Shown here one piece after another: positions 1 through 29,662 of a DNA stretch of 29,662 nt. The notes beneath the pieces were generated by a model. That model was not told the origin of the DNA and made no database searches. It worked only from the letters and a program-made list of their open reading frames with translations. The DNA is from a virus, in IMG/VR virus record IMGVR_UViG_3300046328_000278, positions 1 to 29,662 of that record, one strand, 5' to 3'. The first letter of the stretch is position 1. Every line of letters begins with the position of its first letter. The translations under genes were made by a program, and so were the position numbers.

Positions 1-1344
1 GTGCGTCTACGAAGAATCTCTTATGACGAAGCAAGAGGTATCTATCAAGGTAGATACAAAGACCAGAGTGGTAAAGACCTGTTTGACTACGTTCAAGCAG
101 GACAGACTAGATACTACATGGCAGGTCAAGAGAATCAAACATTATACGATGTAGAGTGGACAGAAGCCGACCAGAATATGGTACAAGAGCTTACTATCCT
201 CTATCGTGGTGAGGACTTAGAGGTTACGTTTGTCGGAGGAGTATTTATGGGTACTCAAGAAGATGTCTATAACTCTAACCCATTCAAACACAGACGTATG
301 TCTTGCATTGCAAACAAGTGGGTATCTATTCCTGTCTATGCTTTTGCAAAGTCAGGCTTCGAGCCACTAGACCCTGCAGGACGTTTTGCATACTACAAGT
401 CAGCATGTTTTAAAGAGTTCTGGGACGATGCAGGACAAAACAAGATGCATCAGATTGCATTTGATGGAACGTACCTTGATGTTATTAAGCCACTCTTTAT
501 GTCAGGAGTAGGTAAGGTGGACTCTACTGTGATGGTTCCTGGTGCTACTGTAGGAATGCCAATGGGAGCATCTGTGACTCCTTATCAGCTTGGTCCGAAC
601 CTACAAGCTGCACTCGCTATGATGCGACAAGAGACAGATGATATGTCTGAGAGTACACAGGATAAGATCCAGTCAGGAGTTGCTTCAAAAGGCGTGACAG
701 CATACGCTACTCAAAAAGCAGAGCAGAACGCACAGGTTATTCTAGGAGTACTCGGTCTTATGATTGCAGACCTTGTTGTACAGATAGGAGAACTTGTTAT
801 GGATGATATTATTATGCACACTACGGTAGGTGAGGTGGACGCTACTGTGCCTGAAGCTCTTGCTATGAAGTATCGAAAGATTAAGCTACAGGGAAAGGAG
901 GCAGGTAAGGACGTTACCAACACTATCGAGTTCTCATCAGATATGATGGGAGAGCATATGACCAAAGAGAAGGCTAACGACCTTGAATGGGATATGTTCG
1001 ACAAAGCAGGAGGCATGGATGCCACTACTCGTAACTATAAAGTTAACCCTTACAAGTTCGCAAGAACAACCTTTGCACTACGAATGGATGCAGAACAAAT
1101 AGTGTCACGCTCTATGGGTACTGATAAACTACGAAAGGACAGAGCATTCAACATGCTTATGGATCCACGTGTTATGCCTTACATCAACCCTCAAGCAGTG
1201 GTCGACAAATATGTGCTTGAGGAATTCTCCGATGGTGATCCTGATCAATTCAAGAAGCCAGAAGGAGGAAACCAAGATATGATTAGTCAAATAATGGGTC
1301 AGAAGCCGACAGCTGAAATTCCTCAGCCCATGGCTATGGCTTAA
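1..1344 (+). CDS. Phage portal protein, C-terminal part (5' truncated by window edge)
   Basis: The frame is open from base 1 to a TAA at 1342-1344, so the visible 447 residues probably lack an N-terminus; the GTG at base 1 is unlikely to be the true start. The portal forms the ring at the capsid vertex through which DNA is packaged and ejected. The region around residues 220-280 (segments QSGVASKGVTAYATQKAEQN and a long helix) matches the stem/crown helical part of podovirus-type portals. The Gln/Pro/Met-rich tail resembles the flexible portal C-terminus. Position directly before a scaffold, decoration and capsid block supports the call. Family assignment is from sequence recognition and gene order, not from a search. 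Confidence 0.75.
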   Translation: MRLRRISYDEARGIYQGRYKDQSGKDLFDYVQAGQTRYYMAGQENQTLYDVEWTEADQNMVQELTILYRGEDLEVTFVGGVFMGTQEDVYNSNPFKHRRMSCIANKWVSIPVYAFAKSGFEPLDPAGRFAYYKSACFKEFWDDAGQNKMHQIAFDGTYLDVIKPLFMSGVGKVDSTVMVPGATVGMPMGASVTPYQLGPNLQAALAMMRQETDDMSESTQDKIQSGVASKGVTAYATQKAEQNAQVILGVLGLMIADLVVQIGELVMDDIIMHTTVGEVDATVPEALAMKYRKIKLQGKEAGKDVTNTIEFSSDMMGEHMTKEKANDLEWDMFDKAGGMDATTRNYKVNPYKFARTTFALRMDAEQIVSRSMGTDKLRKDRAFNMLMDPRVMPYINPQAVVDKYVLEEFSDGDPDQFKKPEGGNQDMISQIMGQKPTAEIPQPMAMA

Positions 1345-1447
1345 TACAAAATTATTAAAAAAGCAAACAAACAACTCCCTCTTCATAAGCAAGTGGCAAC
1401 AGGGAAAAGTGTTAAAAATTATAAAAAGTGTGTTAAGTAATAAATAT

Positions 1448-1639
1448 ATGTCAAAACTATATACATGGGCAGCAAATCCCGCAAAGTTACAGCGAGCAAT
1501 TGCAAAACTAGTCTCAAGAAATGGTACAGAAGCAGAAATCAAAGAAGAATATATCCTTATTGGTGGTCTTGTTGTTGAGCCAGAAGAGGAAAAGGTTGAA
1601 GAATCTCCTAAGCTAAAGAAAGCAAAGAAGAATGCTTAG
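1448..1639 (+). CDS. Small basic protein, unknown function
   Basis: 63 residues if started at the ATG at 1448, which has an A/T-rich leader (AATAAATAT before ATG) like other genes here. An in-frame GTG at 1409 would add 13 residues but has no comparable context. The protein begins MSKLYTWAANPAKLQRAIAK, has a Val/Glu-rich middle and ends in a Lys-rich tail (KLKKAKKNA). No cysteines, no membrane segment. Its stop lies inside the next gene (8-base overlap), so the two are probably translated together. It sits between portal and scaffold, so a head-assembly accessory is possible, but no family is recognised. Confidence 0.6.
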   Translation: MSKLYTWAANPAKLQRAIAKLVSRNGTEAEIKEEYILIGGLVVEPEEEKVEESPKLKKAKKNA

Positions 1640-2018
1640 TAAGCTACTTTCAAAAGTAATAGTGCTCGCTCTGCGTAGTGTTCGTATTACCGGCGAAGAT
1701 AAGGCTAGGGTTACCACTGTGCTTCTAAGTAACATCGGTGCGCTTCCATTCAGGGACGTATTTGCTTACGATCTAGATGGTAGCGTCTATGTGAACGGCA
1801 AGAAGCTGAGTCAAGAGCAATTGATAGCTTTAAAAGAAAGCTGTAAAGCTCTTAATGATTCTTTTTCGAGGAAACTTATTAACGAGCAAATCAGGTTTAT
1901 AGCTGTCAACGAAGGAGTCCATAAAGGTCTTAACTCGGATATGATACTATTTGCTAAAGCAGCCCTGTGGGTAATGGATCAAGAGGAGACAATGATATCC
2001 ACACTTATGAACAGGTAA
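1632..2018 (+). CDS. Hypothetical protein between portal and scaffold
   Basis: 128 residues, starting inside the end of the preceding small gene (8-base overlap). Mixed alpha/beta composition; the segment VFAYDLDGSVYVNGKKLSQE looks like a beta hairpin followed by a helix, and the C-terminal half is helical (HKGLNSDMILFAKAALWVMD). No zinc motif or clear transmembrane segment; the N-terminus is hydrophobic (MLSKLLSKVIVLALRSV) but interrupted by charges. I do not recognise the family. Its place in the head module suggests a packaging or head role by context only. A probable promoter for the capsid genes starts just after its stop. Confidence 0.6.
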   Translation: MLSKLLSKVIVLALRSVRITGEDKARVTTVLLSNIGALPFRDVFAYDLDGSVYVNGKKLSQEQLIALKESCKALNDSFSRKLINEQIRFIAVNEGVHKGLNSDMILFAKAALWVMDQEETMISTLMNR

Positions 2019-2022
2019 CGGT

Positions 2023-2058
2023 TTGCATTCTATCGTGGAAGTATTACACTAATAACAT
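2023..2058 (+). promoter_or_regulatory. Candidate promoter for scaffold/capsid operon with ATAACGTAC operator
   Basis: TTGCAT (2023-2028), a 16-base spacer, then TACACT (2045-2050), predicting a start near 2057. The 9-mer ATAACGTAC lies at 2057-2065, right at the predicted start. The same TTGC[AG]T box and 9-mer occur at the promoters near 22424-22459 and 26395-26423. The motif match is modest (TACACT is 4/6 to consensus) but the shared elements raise confidence. Confidence 0.45.
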
Positions 2059-2065
2059 AACGTAC

Positions 2066-2115
2066 CTCTCACGTAAAGAGAGATGCACAAAAACGCACTT
2101 GCGGCTATAACGCAA
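2066..2115 (+). other. Folded leader of the scaffold gene
   Basis: Two short hairpins lie in the 107-base gap before the scaffold gene: CTCTC (2066-2070) with GAGAG (2078-2082), and TTGCG (2099-2103) with CGCAA (2111-2115). The second ends ten bases before the ATG at 2126. They could protect the 5' end or modulate initiation of an abundant transcript. Both stems are only 5 bp. Confidence 0.35.
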
Positions 2116-2125
2116 ATATCAATAT

Positions 2126-2746
2126 ATGACTGAAATAAATAAAGGAGATGGGGAAAAAGAAAAAGTTATACCTCCTGTAACTAAGGAAGGAGAAGGGGCA
2201 GACGCTCCTAAACCTGACGAACAGAATCCTTTGAAAAAAGAACTTGAGAAAGTTCAGAATAAAGGCGAAGGAAGAACCAAGAAAGAGAAACTACTTTATA
2301 CTAAACAACGTATTGAGGAACAGCTCCGAGAAATGGAAGGTGAAGAGTCAAATGACTTAGACGAAGACGATGACACGCCTGTAACAAAGGGTATGCTCCG
2401 AGAAATGCAAGCAAAAAGTGTTGTGAAAACTGCACTTGATCTTACAGAAGACATATCTGACGATACAGAAAAAGCTCTCGTTCAATATCATATAAAAAAC
2501 ACCATCCGTACTACTGGTAATCCAGCCGAAGACCTTAAACTTGCGCGAGCAATCGTAAACTCTGTTAAAAACAGTCAAATAGCAGAGGAAGTTGTAAGGA
2601 AAGGCGAGGCAAGACAACACTCAAACGGTTCAGGTGGGGCAGGAAAGAGTGAGAAAGTTCTAGAGCTATCAGCTGAAGAACTTCCATTCATGAGTGCACC
2701 ATTCAATATGACCAAAGAGCAAATCATTGCTGCGAGACCTAAATAG
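2126..2746 (+). CDS. Probable capsid scaffolding protein
   Basis: 206 residues, very rich in Glu, Lys and Asp and poor in hydrophobics in the first half. An acidic patch (SNDLDEDDDTPVTKG) lies near residues 75-90, followed by predicted helices and a Gly/Ser linker (SNGSGGAGKS) near residue 165-175. Phage scaffolding proteins are helical, highly charged, 150-300 residues long and encoded just before the major capsid protein, as here; they line the inside of the procapsid and leave on maturation. The start at 2126 has an AT-rich leader without SD. Function is inferred from composition and gene order. Confidence 0.65.
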   Translation: MTEINKGDGEKEKVIPPVTKEGEGADAPKPDEQNPLKKELEKVQNKGEGRTKKEKLLYTKQRIEEQLREMEGEESNDLDEDDDTPVTKGMLREMQAKSVVKTALDLTEDISDDTEKALVQYHIKNTIRTTGNPAEDLKLARAIVNSVKNSQIAEEVVRKGEARQHSNGSGGAGKSEKVLELSAEELPFMSAPFNMTKEQIIAARPK

Positions 2747-2802
2747 CCAGGTCACAAAGGTTTCTGTAACTTACAAAGTTTTAATTTACATTAACTAAAT
2801 TT

Positions 2803-3279
2803 ATGGCACGATACGACATAAAAGTACTGTCACCAATTGAGCTTCCTTTTTCTCAGACCCCTATTGTGGCGTCAGGTACAACCGCTTCTATAAAAGCTGG
2901 TGAGCCTACAAAAGCAGGATCAGCCGGTGCAGTAGCAATCATGGTGGACGCTGATGGTACATCATCACAGAGATTTACTGGTATTGCAAAGTCAGATTCA
3001 TCTGAAACAGCATCAGCGGCAGGAAACGTACAAGTATGGCTTCCTCTCCCTGGTATGATTTACGCTGCTAAGGCTAAGTCATTTGCTGCGGCAGACACAC
3101 AAGCTGAAATTGACGCGCTTTACTACAAGCGTGTGATATTTGACCTTACAAGTGGTGCTTGGACAATCGATACAGCTGCAGCAGATAACACTGCTAACGC
3201 TGTTGTAATTGTTGGTGGAGAGTTTCAGACAGGTACTGTTTACTTTGCTTATTCATACGGTTCTACAATTTTTGAATAA
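2803..3279 (+). CDS. Probable head decoration protein
   Basis: 158 residues, rich in Ala, Ser, Thr and Gly with almost no long helices, typical of small beta-rich virion proteins. Blocks such as KAGEPTKAGSAGAVAIMVDA and NVQVWLPLPGMIYAAKAKSF resemble phage proteins that bind the outside of the capsid lattice and stabilise it after expansion. It sits between the scaffold and major capsid genes, the usual place for a decoration protein. The start is at an ATG with leader TAACTAAATTT and no SD. A head-fibre base protein is an alternative. Confidence 0.6.
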   Translation: MARYDIKVLSPIELPFSQTPIVASGTTASIKAGEPTKAGSAGAVAIMVDADGTSSQRFTGIAKSDSSETASAAGNVQVWLPLPGMIYAAKAKSFAAADTQAEIDALYYKRVIFDLTSGAWTIDTAAADNTANAVVIVGGEFQTGTVYFAYSYGSTIFE

Positions 3280-3311
3280 ACTTTATTAATCTCTAATCAT
3301 AAAATAACACT

Positions 3312-4241
3312 ATGGATCAGAATACCAGCCCGAATCTAAACCTAGTCAAGACCGCTCTTGATAAGCTTTTTGATGAGGCAACAACAGAACAAGCAGTAAC
3401 AGGAAAAGCTCTTGCTACTGACCCTCTTGTGTTTACACAAGATACAGCAACCAATGCAGCAGTTGTTTCAACTGTCATCGGTGGTGGAGGTTACTTTGAC
3501 AAGACTCTTAACGACGTAGGACTTAACAAGAATGCAACAGTTTCTTCTCCTGCTCCTAAGACAACTCTTATCGCTCAGTTCAAGAAAGACTTACCTATTG
3601 CAAGAACTTTCATGGCTGACCAGCAACTCTCAGCAGTTTCTAAAGCGGTAAAGCAGCAAGCACTTACATGGACTGCTTCACAGCAAAGAAACGCATTCTC
3701 TGTGTACGCTCTTGGTTTTACTACACAGCTTACAATTGACGGCGTGGCTACTTTCAGCAACTCGCACATCAACGCTAACGGAGATACAGTTGACAACCTT
3801 GAGACAGGCGCTCTTACAGATGCTAACCTTAATATCATGGTTAACTCACTTCGCACACAGCTTTCACAAACTGGTGTAGTTCTCGGATACGAGCCTAAGT
3901 TCCTTCTTACTCCTTCAATCACTCATCAGACTGGTATGACGGTTGCTAAGTCAGTTCTTAGAGCAGGAACAGGAAACAACGATCTTAACTACTTTTCAGA
4001 AATGTATCCTGGAATGAAGGTTGTGTACTCTCCATTCCTTGACGCTACTTCTACAACTGCATATTTCCTCGGATCTAACTCTCACGGAATTGTGCGATTT
4101 GAAAGAGAAGCTTTCTTCACAAAGCTTGTGAACTGGGATAATGATCTTAACGACCAATACCGCTACAAGATGAGAGCGCGCGAGGAAGTTGATGCTATCG
4201 AATATTCAGCTCTTGTCGGTTCAACGGGAACTACAGCGTAG
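3312..4241 (+). CDS. Major capsid protein, probably HK97 fold
   Basis: 309 residues. The N-terminal segment (residues 1-40) is helical; the rest alternates beta strands and helices. Features matching capsid proteins of the Mu gpT/HK97-like type are the central LGYEPKFLLTPSITHQTGMT block near residue 197-215 and the C-terminal region with NWDNDLNDQYRYKMRAREEV, a conserved ending in which the chain describes the spine helix and P-domain strands. Length and position after scaffold and decoration genes fit. It forms the icosahedral shell. The start lies six bases after TAAAAT (3300-3305), so part of its message could be leaderless. Confidence 0.75.
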   Translation: MDQNTSPNLNLVKTALDKLFDEATTEQAVTGKALATDPLVFTQDTATNAAVVSTVIGGGGYFDKTLNDVGLNKNATVSSPAPKTTLIAQFKKDLPIARTFMADQQLSAVSKAVKQQALTWTASQQRNAFSVYALGFTTQLTIDGVATFSNSHINANGDTVDNLETGALTDANLNIMVNSLRTQLSQTGVVLGYEPKFLLTPSITHQTGMTVAKSVLRAGTGNNDLNYFSEMYPGMKVVYSPFLDATSTTAYFLGSNSHGIVRFEREAFFTKLVNWDNDLNDQYRYKMRAREEVDAIEYSALVGSTGTTA

Positions 4242-17919: not shown

Positions 17920-18033
17920 ATGATAACATATAAATACGCTTTTTCTTTATCCCTTGCAAAAATAAGAAAAGTTTTAAAAACAACTATCTTGTTTTTAAAA
18001 AAGATGATTAAAGAAGAAAATGCAAGACCATAA
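17920..18033 (+). CDS. Possible 37-residue cationic peptide
   Basis: ATG at 17920, TAA at 18031-18033. Sequence starts MITYKYAFSLSLAKIRKVLK, then TTILFLKKMIKEENARP: basic, amphipathic, with one hydrophobic run. The leader AAGAAAAA precedes the ATG. Its stop overlaps the first arm of the inverted repeat at 18030-18077. It could be a small lysis-assisting peptide or chance; the sequence is AT-rich enough that a random 37-codon ORF is not rare. Confidence 0.3.
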   Translation: MITYKYAFSLSLAKIRKVLKTTILFLKKMIKEENARP

Positions 18034-18077
18034 ACAAACACTCCACTTAGAAAGGCCAAGGTGGAGTGTTTGTTTAT
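18030..18077. terminator. Perfect 17-bp inverted repeat, probable terminator of the late operon
   Basis: ATAAACAAACACTCCAC (18030-18046) pairs perfectly with GTGGAGTGTTTGTTTAT (18061-18077) around a 14-base loop. The T-rich end of the second arm (GTTTGTTTAT) can act as the U-tract, and by symmetry the element can work on both strands. It lies directly after the late genes and before the endolysin promoter region. Confidence 0.6.
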
Positions 18078-18217
18078 GTAAGAACTATTTTGTATTGATT
18101 TGTTAGCACTCCCCAGAAAGAACTTGTTAATCTACGAGTAAATTAACCTTTTTAAGTATAATATGATATCCACATGACGTACAGCAGCTATCCACTTTTT
18201 TATGTATACTATTACAC
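18078..18217 (+). promoter_or_regulatory. Regulatory region of endolysin gene with leaderless promoter
   Basis: TATACT at 18205-18210 is followed seven bases later by ATG (18218), so the start of transcription falls at or beside the start codon. A second, consensus TATAAT is at 18157-18162. ACGTACA, a variant of the shared operator core, lies at 18177-18183, and two DnaA-box-like sequences (ATATCCACA at 18166-18174, CTATCCACT near 18189) flank it. No convincing -35 box is seen, so an activator may be needed. Confidence 0.45.
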
Positions 18218-19252
18218 ATGAACACACAAGAAGAAACTTATTTTACTGGACTGCTCCCTGACACACGTACAGAGGCAGAGAAAGCTAAAGATTGGAAGAG
18301 TACCGAGCTGTATGCAATGGGGACTCCGCTTTCCTTTCGGACTGTAAGTGAAGGAGGGTGGAAGAAGTATCAAGTAAGAAATCAAGACGGATCAGGGTCT
18401 TGCGTAGCAAACACTGTGGCTAAGATGCTAGAGGTTAAACGTGCTATGGCAAAAGGAGACAGTATCAAGTTTTCACACGCTCCTATTTATCTTAACCGTT
18501 CGAACAAGCCGGGCACAGGTATGATTGGCGTTAACGCACTAGAGCTTGCCACAAAGTTTTCGTCTTGCCTTGAAACTATCGTGCCATCTGAGAATATGAA
18601 TGACGCGCAGCTTGACGCTATTAAGTTACCTAAGAATTACGAAGACCTCAACAACCTTTCTGTGCCTACCCACTACACTACCTGCCCGGTGGAATTTGAC
18701 TACATTGCTAATATGGTAGAAAAAGAAGGTTGCGCTATGATCTGGGTGAACACAGATTATCAGTCATGGTGCAAAGATATCCCTACAGTTGGTGGTAAAA
18801 AAAATGTCGTTGTACACTCAATTACTGCTGTTGATTATTTTAACTTTAACGGTGTCGATTATATTCTTATTGAAGACTCATGGGGTAAGTTCGGTAAGTA
18901 CAATGGGCAGAGACTTCTTACAAGAGAGTTCTTTAAAGACGCTGTATGGTTTGCAGGGATACTTCTCGACTTTAAATATGATGTAACCGACTTAGCTTTT
19001 CAGCCTTTCAACACTATCATGGAGTTCGGACAGTCATCATCTGAGGTAAAAAGGCTACAGCAGCTTCTTCAGGCTCGTGGCTTCTTCCCATCAGGCCAAG
19101 AGTGTACTGGTTTTTATGGGTCAATAACAGCTTTAGCGGTGTATCAAATGCAGATAAAGTATGCGGTAGACACACTTAATGTATTAAATGCACTACGAGG
19201 TAAAAGGGTGGGCAGAAAGACTCTTCTTAAGATAAACGCTAAACTGTTATAG
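18218..19252 (+). CDS. Endolysin-like: papain-like C1 peptidase with peptidoglycan-binding domain
   Basis: 344 residues. A papain-type fold is indicated by Gln56 and the catalytic Cys62 in QDGSGSCVANTV, the active-site His200 in NVVVHSITAVDYF, and the IEDSWGKFGKYNGQ box at 218-230. Papain normally has Asn in the NSWG box; here it is Asp220. Residues about 262-344 are a peptidoglycan-binding helix bundle (FGQSSSEVKRLQQLLQARGF, then FYGSITALAVYQMQ). Together this fits a cell-wall-degrading enzyme for lysis or entry. No signal peptide. It is transcribed alone from a probably leaderless promoter and its stop overlaps the convergent nuclease gene by six bases. Confidence 0.65.
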   Translation: MNTQEETYFTGLLPDTRTEAEKAKDWKSTELYAMGTPLSFRTVSEGGWKKYQVRNQDGSGSCVANTVAKMLEVKRAMAKGDSIKFSHAPIYLNRSNKPGTGMIGVNALELATKFSSCLETIVPSENMNDAQLDAIKLPKNYEDLNNLSVPTHYTTCPVEFDYIANMVEKEGCAMIWVNTDYQSWCKDIPTVGGKKNVVVHSITAVDYFNFNGVDYILIEDSWGKFGKYNGQRLLTREFFKDAVWFAGILLDFKYDVTDLAFQPFNTIMEFGQSSSEVKRLQQLLQARGFFPSGQECTGFYGSITALAVYQMQIKYAVDTLNVLNALRGKRVGRKTLLKINAKLL

Positions 19253-22266: not shown

Positions 22267-22305
22267 AAATGTTTGCTTGTTTATTGTTATTAGTTTACGC
22301 ACATA

Positions 22306-22423
22306 GTAGGAGGGAGAGAAGAGACAACATGTTATATGTAGACGCTTACTAACGTTACTCCCAGTGTAGACTTGCTAACCAGTTGGACGTCGATACGTTT
22401 TCTATCTCCTCTTTCCCTCCTAC
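22306..22423 (-). ncRNA. Candidate structured 5' leader of the SSB-like gene
   Basis: Two 19-base arms, GTAGGAGGGAGAGAAGAGA (22306-22324) and TCTCCTCTTTCCCTCCTAC (22405-22423), pair at 17 of 19 positions and enclose about 80 bases. On the minus strand the 5' arm begins at or within one base of the predicted transcription start near 22424, so the RNA begins as one side of a stable helix. The interior includes palindromes TAACGTTA and AACATGTT and two copies of GTCTAC. The AUG lies about 40 bases after the stem. Confidence 0.5.
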
Positions 22424-22459
22424 TTTACATATTTTAGCGTACGTTATAAGATAACGCAA
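22424..22459 (-). promoter_or_regulatory. Early promoter with palindromic operator
   Basis: On the minus strand TTGCGT (plus 22454-22459), a 17-base spacer and TAAAAT (22431-22436) give a start near 22424. The spacer contains CGTTAT-AAG-ATAACG (22442-22456), a perfect 6-bp palindrome, and the 11-mer TTATAACGTAC also found at 26407-26417. Both suggest repressor or activator control of the SSB/Acb2/helicase unit. Confidence 0.5.
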
Positions 22460-22477: not shown

Positions 22478-22486
22478 TGTGGATAA
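22478..22486 (-). other. Perfect DnaA box (candidate origin element)
   Basis: TGTGGATAA, the reverse complement of the consensus TTATCCACA. It lies in the divergent intergenic region beside a promoter and a palindrome and overlaps the -35 region of the plus-strand promoter. A single perfect box could be chance; an 8/9 copy is at 29623-29631. Confidence 0.35.
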
Positions 22487-24389: not shown

Positions 24390-24739
24390 ACGTCTTTCTT
24401 TATCCCCCCATCAATAAATCCTTTCTTGTAGGCTTCCTTTAGCTCTAAGTTGCATACATTTGTAGCTTCCATAGCCCCAAGGTCGTAAGCTTCTTGTAAA
24501 GCTGTGGCAAAAAACAATTCAATAGACGCTTCCATATTTTCTTCAAAATACTCACGCCACTGTTGTAGTTTTTCTTTAATGAACAGTTTGTTTGCATCTT
24601 TCTTTGAAAAGATACTATCTAAGGAGTTAGTATCTTTTGTTTCCTCCAAAGATTTTTCTCCTATACTCCAAATGTAGATGGGGCAAATTATTTTATAGAT
24701 AAAGTGTTTTATTTTGTATTCAATTTCTTCTTTGTGCAT
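24386..24739 (-). CDS. Hypothetical helical early protein
   Basis: 117 residues: MHKEEIEYKIKHFIYKIICP then a Lys/Glu-rich stretch and a helical C-terminal half (MEASIELFFATALQEAYDLG; LKEAYKKGFIDGGIKKDV). The N-terminal IYKIICPIYIWSIG is moderately hydrophobic but too short and broken for a clear TM. Start is one base after the previous stop (TAA-T-ATG); stop overlaps the zinc gene start. The C-terminal EAYxxGxxxG pattern recurs in small phage proteins of unknown role. Confidence 0.55.
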   Translation of the reverse strand: MHKEEIEYKIKHFIYKIICPIYIWSIGEKSLEETKDTNSLDSIFSKKDANKLFIKEKLQQWREYFEENMEASIELFFATALQEAYDLGAMEATNVCNLELKEAYKKGFIDGGIKKDV

Positions 24740-27119: not shown

Positions 27120-29261
27120 TTAAAATAGTGTTACTGGAGGAAACCGTTTAGTGGTCTCCTCGGTTGGTATATAAAGCACCCTACGCTTTCCGTCTTTGAT
27201 TCTGCGTACCGTTTCAAGACGAAGCGTGTTCTTTAGTATTGGTGGAATGATAACATTATGGAGTTGGTTCATACGCTCCTCTCCTTTACCAATTGCCATG
27301 TCGTATACCTCCTCTAGTGTATACCCTTCCTCACGTTCTTTTTGTGACCGGTCATAGTACCAGTCGATTATCTTTGTTTCTTCAAAACGCTCCTGTCTAC
27401 GGTCATCTTGCATCTCTTTTACTGTTTCTGTGTTGAGTCCATCGTAAAGATTCTCGTTAAAAGTAACTGCACGGTGGTATGCCTCAGCGTAGAGTTGCTC
27501 CCTGTTTTCTTTTAACCAGTCTATATTCACCTCGCCTACGCAGGATACCGGAAGCCACCTTCTATTCCCTGTACTATCTTTTAGGTACTTAGCATCATTT
27601 GTAGTCATAGCAAACACACAGCGTCTAGGCCGTTCCTCTATCTCTCTACCATATGGGGATCTAAAGGCATCTATCTGTGTGGTGATAATTGACTTAAGCA
27701 GCTTGTCAGATGCCTTATCCTGTAATTCTCCTTCTGAGAACTCTACGATAGTTTTTCCTTGCATTAACATAAAGAAATCCTTGTTGTTAGGGTTAGTGGT
27801 AATTTCTGCGTACCAATCCTCTGCCAGAACCCTAAAGGAAGTACTCTTCTTTATGCCCTGTTTACCCTCTAGCACTAGTACATTGTCGAATTTACATCCT
27901 GGTACGCAAACTCGCTTAACTAACGCCTTGAGCCATTGTGTACCGAATGCCTCGTATTCTTTCTCGTATCCTATGGTGTTATATGTCCTCTGTATCCATT
28001 CGTGTAAGCGTGGCTTTTGATCCCATACTAGTGACTCGAAGTATTCCTTAGCAGGATCAACAGCGTTTTCTTTACAGTATTGAAGCACAGCGTTTATCAC
28101 ATAGGAGTCACTTGCTGTACGGAGAGCGTAGTCTGGGTAGTTTTGTGCAAGGATAGTCTGAATAAGGTTTTTATCATTATCTTCGTAACGTCTCCATTCT
28201 TTCTTTGGTGTTAACACCTCCTTAGTGTCTAGCCATTCGTTGTAGCGTAATGTTCCGGCTAGTCCATCAGTTATCCGTAGTGCAATAAGGACGTTCTCCT
28301 TACAAGGGATTATTACCTCACCATGAGCTTTCGTCCATTGTGTTAGAAACTCTGTATTTACTGTTGAAACACCTCGTGGTGTGTAAACGTTCTTACAAGC
28401 AGCTATAGCGTTATCTATAGACCTCTTTCTATACTCCGCTCTCCCTTGTGTCTTCTTTCTTTGACCAAGAGGGGACGATCTCCATATAACCTCCATCTGA
28501 GTGGCGTTCTTTCCGGTCCAGAAAGCAAGTGTTGAAAGTAGTGCCATATCAGCTCGTGATTCGTCATCATCGTACTTTGTAGTATCTCCTTCATAGAGTT
28601 TCTTTATATCCTCACCATTTTTAGAAGCAAACATCCTTTCTAACACCTCTTCGTCAGGCATAGTATGCGATATCTGTTTTACTGATTCTGTGGAGTCGGT
28701 ACCCTTTCCCCAAGGATAGCCGATTATGGAGAGAATCTGTAAGATTTCAGCTTCGTCCACCGTCCTTACTGGTATAGCCTTATTAAAAGGATTATTGGTC
28801 GTGGCGATGAACCTTACATCTGCATACACTTCAAAAGGAGCCTTTTTGTTAGCGAGAGGAACGAATGGAGTGGTGCATTCTAGGAATATGTGAAGTCCTG
28901 TACCTGACTGTGATATCTCGGTAAAGGTATTAGCTTTTTTTAGGAGTGCTAGGATAATGTCCGCTTGTGCGTGTTTTACCTTTCCATCCTCTACTACGTG
29001 GTCGATATCTATGCAGATCAGTTTTCCATCGTGGAGCATAATACCTACTCCTGCAAAGCCATTAGATCCATTATCTGCTGCAGTTGATACTGCTTCATAC
29101 GTGTTCCAGGTTAGTGGGTCGTTAGACTTAGCTTTTACTGTTTTTGTTTGGTACGGAACTTTTGTGTGCTTTACATTTCCATCCTTATCTTTAACGGGGA
29201 CTAGCTTCCAATTTACCCAACGCTTCTCGTTTATGTATTTTTCAATAAGTGGACTTTGCAT
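27120..29261 (-). CDS. Primase-helicase: prim-pol domain plus VirE-type ATPase
   Basis: 713 residues. An N-terminal bifunctional prim-pol has Asp85-x-Asp87 (LICIDIDH) and the SGTGLHIF box (His124), the metal-binding and nucleotide residues of AEP primases. The C-terminal VirE/D5-like ATPase has Walker A GKQGIKKST at about 466-474, with Lys at a position where many homologues have Gly, an acidic motif (IVEFSEGEL), and a sensor/arginine-finger region TTNDAKYLKDSTGNRRW near 555-575. It would prime and unwind at the phage origin. Start follows the upstream stop by one base (TAG-T-ATG). Confidence 0.8.
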   Translation of the reverse strand: MQSPLIEKYINEKRWVNWKLVPVKDKDGNVKHTKVPYQTKTVKAKSNDPLTWNTYEAVSTAADNGSNGFAGVGIMLHDGKLICIDIDHVVEDGKVKHAQADIILALLKKANTFTEISQSGTGLHIFLECTTPFVPLANKKAPFEVYADVRFIATTNNPFNKAIPVRTVDEAEILQILSIIGYPWGKGTDSTESVKQISHTMPDEEVLERMFASKNGEDIKKLYEGDTTKYDDDESRADMALLSTLAFWTGKNATQMEVIWRSSPLGQRKKTQGRAEYRKRSIDNAIAACKNVYTPRGVSTVNTEFLTQWTKAHGEVIIPCKENVLIALRITDGLAGTLRYNEWLDTKEVLTPKKEWRRYEDNDKNLIQTILAQNYPDYALRTASDSYVINAVLQYCKENAVDPAKEYFESLVWDQKPRLHEWIQRTYNTIGYEKEYEAFGTQWLKALVKRVCVPGCKFDNVLVLEGKQGIKKSTSFRVLAEDWYAEITTNPNNKDFFMLMQGKTIVEFSEGELQDKASDKLLKSIITTQIDAFRSPYGREIEERPRRCVFAMTTNDAKYLKDSTGNRRWLPVSCVGEVNIDWLKENREQLYAEAYHRAVTFNENLYDGLNTETVKEMQDDRRQERFEETKIIDWYYDRSQKEREEGYTLEEVYDMAIGKGEERMNQLHNVIIPPILKNTLRLETVRRIKDGKRRVLYIPTEETTKRFPPVTLF

Positions 29262-29262
29262 A

Positions 29263-29490
29263 CTAGAATTGTGAATATCTATAAGCTAAACCCTTATAAC
29301 AGTATGTTTCTCCACCCTCATTAAAGTCTACAAAAATAGTGTCATTTTCGTATATAACTATTGTTTTTACAGTCTTTGTTTTTCTATCAGGGACTATGTG
29401 TGCTCCTGAGACTTTTTCTCCAACAATAAAATCTTCGTATCCACTTCCTGTATATATTCTCAAACTTTGTGTCTCTCTATATTTGTCCAT
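29263..29490 (-). CDS. First gene of the early operon, unknown small protein
   Basis: 75 residues: MDKYRETQSLRIYTGSGYED, VSGAHIVPDRKTKTVKTIVI, then FVDFNEGGETYCYKGLAYRY. Beta-rich small domain; one Cys. It follows a near-consensus promoter and a long hairpin leader, so it is probably the first protein made, and is coupled to the primase. No SD; leader CACATATAT before ATG. No family recognised. Confidence 0.55.
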   Translation of the reverse strand: MDKYRETQSLRIYTGSGYEDFIVGEKVSGAHIVPDRKTKTVKTIVIYENDTIFVDFNEGGETYCYKGLAYRYSQF

Positions 29491-29504: not shown

Positions 29505-29557
29505 TCCAGTATGTTGCTTTCCAATTGAGTTAGAAAAGCAACATACTGGACTCAATT
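29505..29557 (-). ncRNA. 16-bp hairpin with possible pseudoknot in the early leader
   Basis: TCCAGTATGTTGCTTT (29505-29520) pairs perfectly with AAAGCAACATACTGGA (29535-29550). The loop contains AATTGAG (29523-29529), complementary to CTCAATT (29551-29557) just outside the stem, so an H-type pseudoknot or two exclusive hairpins are possible. It ends 14 bases before the ATG at 29490. Confidence 0.6.
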
Positions 29558-29587
29558 TAGGCAATATGAACTAAAATGTCATTTGCT

Positions 29588-29622
29588 TATTTGTAGTATA
29601 TAAGTAGTTTTGTGTACGTCAA
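29588..29622 (-). promoter_or_regulatory. Near-consensus early promoter
   Basis: On the minus strand TTGACG (plus 29617-29622), a 16-base spacer and TATACT (29595-29600). Start is predicted near 29588, giving a leader of about 98 bases with the hairpin at 29505-29557. The core ACGTACA overlaps the -35. Just upstream is TTATCCACT, a DnaA-box-like sequence. Confidence 0.75.
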
Positions 29623-29662
29623 AGTGGATAACTTACGTCCATAGGGGGTGGACGATTTGAGG

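Follow-up and report, generated by a model that had tools for sequence, protein, structure and literature searches.

In the window (the whole virus record, 29,662 nt), two complementary pairs of segments alternate in the order B-A-B′-A′ directly upstream of a minus-strand start codon, and this arrangement recurs in other phages: 22 leaders with it, nearly all of them differing in sequence, were gathered from 15 contigs that belong to uncultivated phages, some related to the window phage and others distant. The existence of this recurring architecture is well supported. As to its function, we hypothesise that the leader is a two-state co-transcriptional kinetic switch that times translation in the manner of the MS2 maturation leader, a reading that we hold with roughly even confidence.

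The components of the window leader are listed in Table 1. A perfect 16-bp stem is formed by 29505-29520 and 29535-29550, and the loop segment AATTGAG (29523-29529, plus strand) is complementary to the flanking CTCAATT (29551-29557, plus strand), giving a match of 7-8 bp. The stem lengthens to 18 pairs with one G·U and one G-C at its top, and the RNA fold yields a 21-bp hairpin. The distance from the end of A′ to the ATG (29490-29488) is 14 nt, or 11 nt for the 21-bp fold. The pairing is real and far beyond chance: the fold has a z-score of -5.87, none of 200 shuffles folded equally well, and the longest perfect stem in 20 Markov shuffles of the window was 9-11 bp. A comparison with the families of Rfam 15 gave no match in the window at the gathering score. 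The original prediction had described the stem, the complementarity between loop and flank and the 14-base distance to the ATG, and all of these were borne out, as was its view of an RNA-type leader with a non-accidental B/B′ match; relatives keep the arrangement before other genes while the sequence changes. Its segment order, A-B-A′-B′, applies to the plus strand but not to the coding (minus) strand, where the order is B-A-B′-A′. The leader had also been counted as the third structured one on this strand. That count is not established: besides this leader, the window yielded a single long inverted repeat placed 5′ of a start on the minus strand (22305-22424; 20 nt, 90% complementary, 80 nt apart, ending just 5′ of a GTG start at 22302), and a repeat at 24607-24638 falls within an ORF. 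Elsewhere in the window, a 22-bp hairpin (18029-18078; 20 Watson-Crick pairs) that separates the late genes from the endolysin gene exceeds the leader hairpin in length. A -10-like TATACT (18205-18210; site 18205-18220) lies so near the endolysin ATG that the endolysin mRNA may be leaderless.

Table 1. Elements of the leader and its surroundings in the window, in the order of transcription.
Feature	Position	Strand	Basis
Promoter-like TTGACG-16-TATACT; transcription would start ca. 30 nt before B	29595-29622	-	Consensus match only
Weaker -10-like CATATT, 5 nt 5′ of B	29563-29568	-	4/6 consensus match
B, 5′ segment AATTGAG (AATTGAGT including 29550)	29551-29557	-	Sequence; nascent fold pairs B with B′
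A, 5′ arm of the stable hairpin, TCCAGTATGTTGCTTT; reaches 29533 with the wobble extension	29535-29550	-	Sequence, fold
Spacer of 5 nt, A to B′	29534-29530	-	Sequence
B′, loop segment CTCAATT, complement of B	29523-29529	-	Sequence
GG between B′ and A′	29522-29521	-	Sequence
A′, 3′ arm of the stable hairpin	29505-29520	-	Sequence, fold
75-aa ORF, start codon after the leader; without family match or Shine-Dalgarno sequence	29263-29490	-	ORF list, family searches
Next ORF, VapE-like primase/helicase with NrS-1 HBD domain	27120-29261	-	Family searches

A survey of long hairpins outside genes in 26 contigs placed many of them directly 5′ of start codons, often with a 5′ flank matching the loop. 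For scoring, hairpins with at least 10 Watson-Crick pairs and a loop of 8-28 were taken in both orientations from 37 contigs (823 kb). The B/B′ match was present in 12 of the 113 hairpin orientations with an ATG ORF 0-25 nt downstream and in 6 of the 699 without (Fisher p = 2.8e-7), one of these six, G029+20781, standing before a GTG ORF. Among stems of at least 15 Watson-Crick pairs the figures were 6/7 with a start versus 0/21 without, and at 16 pairs or longer 4/4 versus 0/18. Three shuffles gave 1/39, 0/23 and 1/22 with a start and 5/565, 5/549 and 8/550 without. The control phages (T7, lambda, P-SSP7, half of crAss001 and MW202601) gave 0/30 and 2/230, and the 12 contigs of a bacterial MAG 0/10 and 2/88. 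Because the scoring rule was shaped on the 37 contigs, those fetched later provide the fairer test. In 13 later portal contigs the match occurred in 2/16 versus 1/64 (p = 0.1), one of the two duplicating a known leader, and in seven later GroEL contigs of the clade in 2/8 versus 0/62 (p = 0.012); pooled and with the duplicate removed, the later contigs gave 3/23 versus 1/126 (p = 0.012). In 13 distant GroEL contigs (25%-31% GroEL identity) the enrichment was not significant (3/31 versus 3/119), and two of these three matches, in L155 and L161, resemble true members by predicted fold. A first, looser scan was dropped, as it was dominated by chance matches (5′ flank, 107 versus 73 in shuffles; 3′ flank, 111 versus 94).

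The 22 leaders were curated. Taken by eye or under a relaxed rule were G029+20781 (GTG start), G029+31342 (score 6.0, two G·U), G033+23200 (one mismatch), G005+7027, L103 (internal loop), G012+60 and G028+6192. Left out were G033+22848 and G025-3586, with a start downstream and doubtful geometry, as well as G002, G012-20147, G018+27899, G034 (two), L097, L154, L163 and L164 (two). The L095 leader is a copy of G015+4049, and G026+2029 was seen only under a looser G·U/A·C rule. The sole sequence similarity seen among leaders was a loop segment CGCAAGG paired to a TTGCG-bearing B in four of them (G029+20781, G009+38678, L155+2340 and L161-4999). The class was not found in a literature search of open-licence PMC.

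The genes behind the leaders are mutually unrelated. GroEL, identified by similarity, follows the leader in G021, G029, L101, L103 and L137; the other names are readings of the sequences, with no family searches behind them. Thus labelled, putative replication initiators (G031, G015, G029 and G028), HNH-type nucleases (G015, G033 and G005), a glycosyltransferase-like protein (G009) and an ATPase (G033) are read here behind the leaders, the others being unknowns. Three such helices are chained 5′ of the replication-like gene in G028. Among GroEL starts, the leader was present in 4 of the 23 in the first set (G021, G029, L101 and L103, with different letters in each) and in one of the eight in the further set (L137); 26 of the 31 starts are without it, and many of those adjoin the preceding gene directly. 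This comparison by architecture class and GroEL orthologues was used in place of relatives of the 75-aa gene, since none was found: the ORF matched no Pfam or PHROG family and no phage record, and neither it nor the leader had a homologue in the viral collection, phage records or related contigs. Matches of 35 nt to Streptomyces phages were at chance level and were rejected. The description of this ORF as the first early gene is likewise not established, given its lack of a family or phage-record match and the further minus-strand genes at the far end of contig L013.

L013 is 99.9% identical to window positions 1-3669 and extends the other way. It holds three copies of CGTCCACCCC and the last bases of the window hold one, so both may end near the same intergenic repeat. 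Repeats of the GGGGTGGACGAT type occur at the right end of the window (29644-29656) and three times close to where L013 begins on its left (76-173); the assembly may have broken in this iteron-like intergenic zone. The relatives were found by portal and capsid genes, and most share the structural half only. None of them carries the 75-aa gene, and one of the 37 records (G020) has a related primase, with 43% identity (1 of the 27 records of MCP relatives and 0 of the 10 in the first set). In G020 a long hairpin lies 5′ of the primase gene, without a B/B′ match on the coding strand. Pattern scans of viral and genome collections returned no close relative of the window primase, for which distant matches occur in 1025 phage records, and a pattern scan for the PDDEXK protein gave no viral locus. 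Most of these phages carry a GroEL-like chaperonin gene (at 2056-3600 in L013), and one relative was placed in a Methylococcaceae MAG, possibly misbinned.

With regard to the place of the leader in the message, a -10-like hexamer ends 0-14 nt upstream of B in 13 of 17 leaders (expected 0.42; p = 0.004), G018-33609 being counted only in this test. These promoter-like matches suggest that the mRNA begins shortly before B. The evidence of the window itself on this point is weaker because 37 nt separate B from the better of its promoter matches upstream. No Shine-Dalgarno signal was detected upstream of genes in related contigs, and in most of them the motif is no commoner there than inside genes. 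The DnaA-box-like TTATCCACA occurs in the window at 29624-29631 (minus strand) and 22479-22486 (minus strand); it has 28 copies in the 37 contigs, frequently preceding promoter-like sequences, versus 2-11 in five shuffles.

The spacing of the segments bears directly on whether the two helices can coexist. In the window, B abuts A (0 nt) and B′ is separated from A′ by 0-2 nt, whereas the A:A′ stem measures 16-21 bp. Across the 12 scored leaders, the end of B ranges from 5 nt inside the stem to 3 nt before it, and B′ ends 0-3 nt 5′ of A′ in 11 of the 12, a spacing that the search had left free. The dimensions of the A-form helix are established, and from these and the linkers read from the sequence we infer that B:B′ and A:A′ cannot stand together; because B abuts A and B′ abuts A′, the helices exclude each other. 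The predicted folds suggest instead that they are alternatives in time, B:B′ first and then A:A′. For all 22 leaders (16/16 and 6/6), the predicted fold is B:B′ when the RNA stops at B′ and A:A′ when the leader is full-length, a result that is partly circular because the leaders were picked for B/B′ pairing. When the window leader is folded prefix by prefix, B:B′ is present at 42 nt (-5.9 kcal/mol) and has given way to A:A′ in prefixes of 48 nt and longer. None of the first 16 leaders has a weaker B:B′ than the window (-2.8 kcal/mol for 7 bp); with so weak a helix, overtaken by A:A′ soon after A′ starts emerging, its delay may be short. Computed refolding barriers of 11-19 kcal/mol are upper bounds because pseudoknotted intermediates were ignored. 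The predicted unpaired fraction at -20 to -1 is 0.67 with B:B′ and 0.37 with A:A′, and it is higher with B:B′ in 16 of 16 leaders, in which B lies 54-75 nt from the start codon.

A sequence of events can be proposed on this basis. During transcription, B and B′ would leave the polymerase ahead of A′ and pair into a small, metastable 5′ hairpin with A in its loop; as A′ emerges, the far more stable A:A′ hairpin would displace B:B′. While B:B′ lasts, the region 5′ of the start codon would be mostly open. Once A:A′ has formed, the hairpin would end 0-16 nt from the start codon, within the usual 30S footprint, so that translation would take place on new transcripts and be shut off on older ones. 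We infer how this acts on ribosomes, in which direction (on first, off later) and for how long, the direction coming from the predicted openness at the start codon; the sign could also be the reverse, or the leader could act on mRNA stability.

Other explanations have to be weighed against this timing switch. The original prediction was a classical H-type pseudoknot. With B:B′ and A:A′ standing together, such a fold could perhaps serve as a ribosome standby or protein-binding site in the style of tisB, timP or T4 gene 32. The helices do cross in the order 1-2-1′-2′, and pseudoknots 5′ of start codons drive the translation of tisB and timP (PMC11228461). Neither near-zero linker can span the 16-21-bp stem, however, and about half of this stable stem would have to open; the pseudoknot as originally described is thus not supported, and we regard it as improbable. 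Somewhat less improbable, although still unlikely, is a 5′ stabiliser or insulator in which only A:A′ matters, protecting the mRNA end and keeping the start region free of other structure, while B/B′ only prevents A:A′-induced pausing of RNA polymerase just after initiation. The apparent nearness of B to the mRNA 5′ end would suit such a role, and an open start region may matter more in these phages because they use no Shine-Dalgarno sequences. Nevertheless, A:A′ reduces the predicted openness at -20 to -1, and a stabiliser has no need to adjoin the start codon.

Transcription attenuation, with A:A′ as terminator and B:B′ as antiterminator, would account for the mutually exclusive hairpins, which are the rule in such systems, and two of 16 leaders (G033+19537 and G005+7027) have 5 or more T among the 8 nt that follow the stem. 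The other 14 are without a U-tract, including the window leader (2 T of 8), and attenuation does not need the hairpin to end within 16 nt of the start codon. Since U-tracts follow just 2 of 16 stems, termination is not the general output, and attenuation is quite improbable as the common explanation. Least probable of all, and by our estimate very much so, is an element acting at the DNA level, such as an operator, a replication-origin hairpin or a recombination site. The window copy does lie next to a primase gene, a TTATCCAC box and a GGGGTGGACGAT repeat that L013 also carries, but as many as three leaders occur per genome, preceding different genes and unrelated in sequence. Moreover, under a rule even-handed to both, stems on the coding strand contain 26 G·U versus 14 A·C (p = 0.04), which points modestly to selection on the coding-strand RNA; the ratio of 27 versus 6 obtained under the leader search rule is inflated because that rule favoured G·U.

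A broader reading, which we hold somewhat more tentatively, is that B-A-B′-A′ leaders with near-zero linkers could be RNA regulators that form a class through their architecture and nothing else, serving as programmable folding timers for many different genes in uncultivated DNA phages without Shine-Dalgarno sequences. Such a class would be invisible to covariance models because its members have almost no sequence in common, and it illustrates how structured RNAs can elude sequence- or covariance-based searches. Few natural examples of translation timed by delayed RNA folding are known. A recurring module in more than twenty sequences, nearly all different, would offer designs ready for mutational tests and a means of controlling early genes in phages that lack Shine-Dalgarno sequences.

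Among known systems, the T4 gene 32 leader contains a true H-type pseudoknot bound by gp32, and the window leader resembles it in having a pseudoknot-type order in a phage leader 5′ of a replication gene. The timP and tisB 5′ UTRs also have crossing pairings 5′ of the start codon and adopt mutually exclusive conformations of which the pseudoknot is the active fold (PMC11228461), whereas the phage-leader helices cannot coexist. Type I toxin mRNAs (hok and aapA) form successive, mutually exclusive hairpins during transcription (PMC6733600), and the phage leaders are predicted to do likewise. The transient hairpins of aapA3 mask the Shine-Dalgarno region and prevent early translation (PMC6733600), in contrast to the phage leaders, in which no Shine-Dalgarno sequence is present and the transient state is predicted to be the more open one. 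The closest precedent that has been tested is the MS2 maturation leader: a stable fold that impedes ribosome binding forms late there, held up by a small transient hairpin near the 5′ end (PMC6582335; PMC6733600). The phage leaders would share this transient-then-stable logic in a compact form. MS2, however, is an RNA phage whose single leader of this kind settles into a cloverleaf-like fold, whereas the compact B-A-B′-A′ module recurs before several genes in DNA phages without Shine-Dalgarno sequences.
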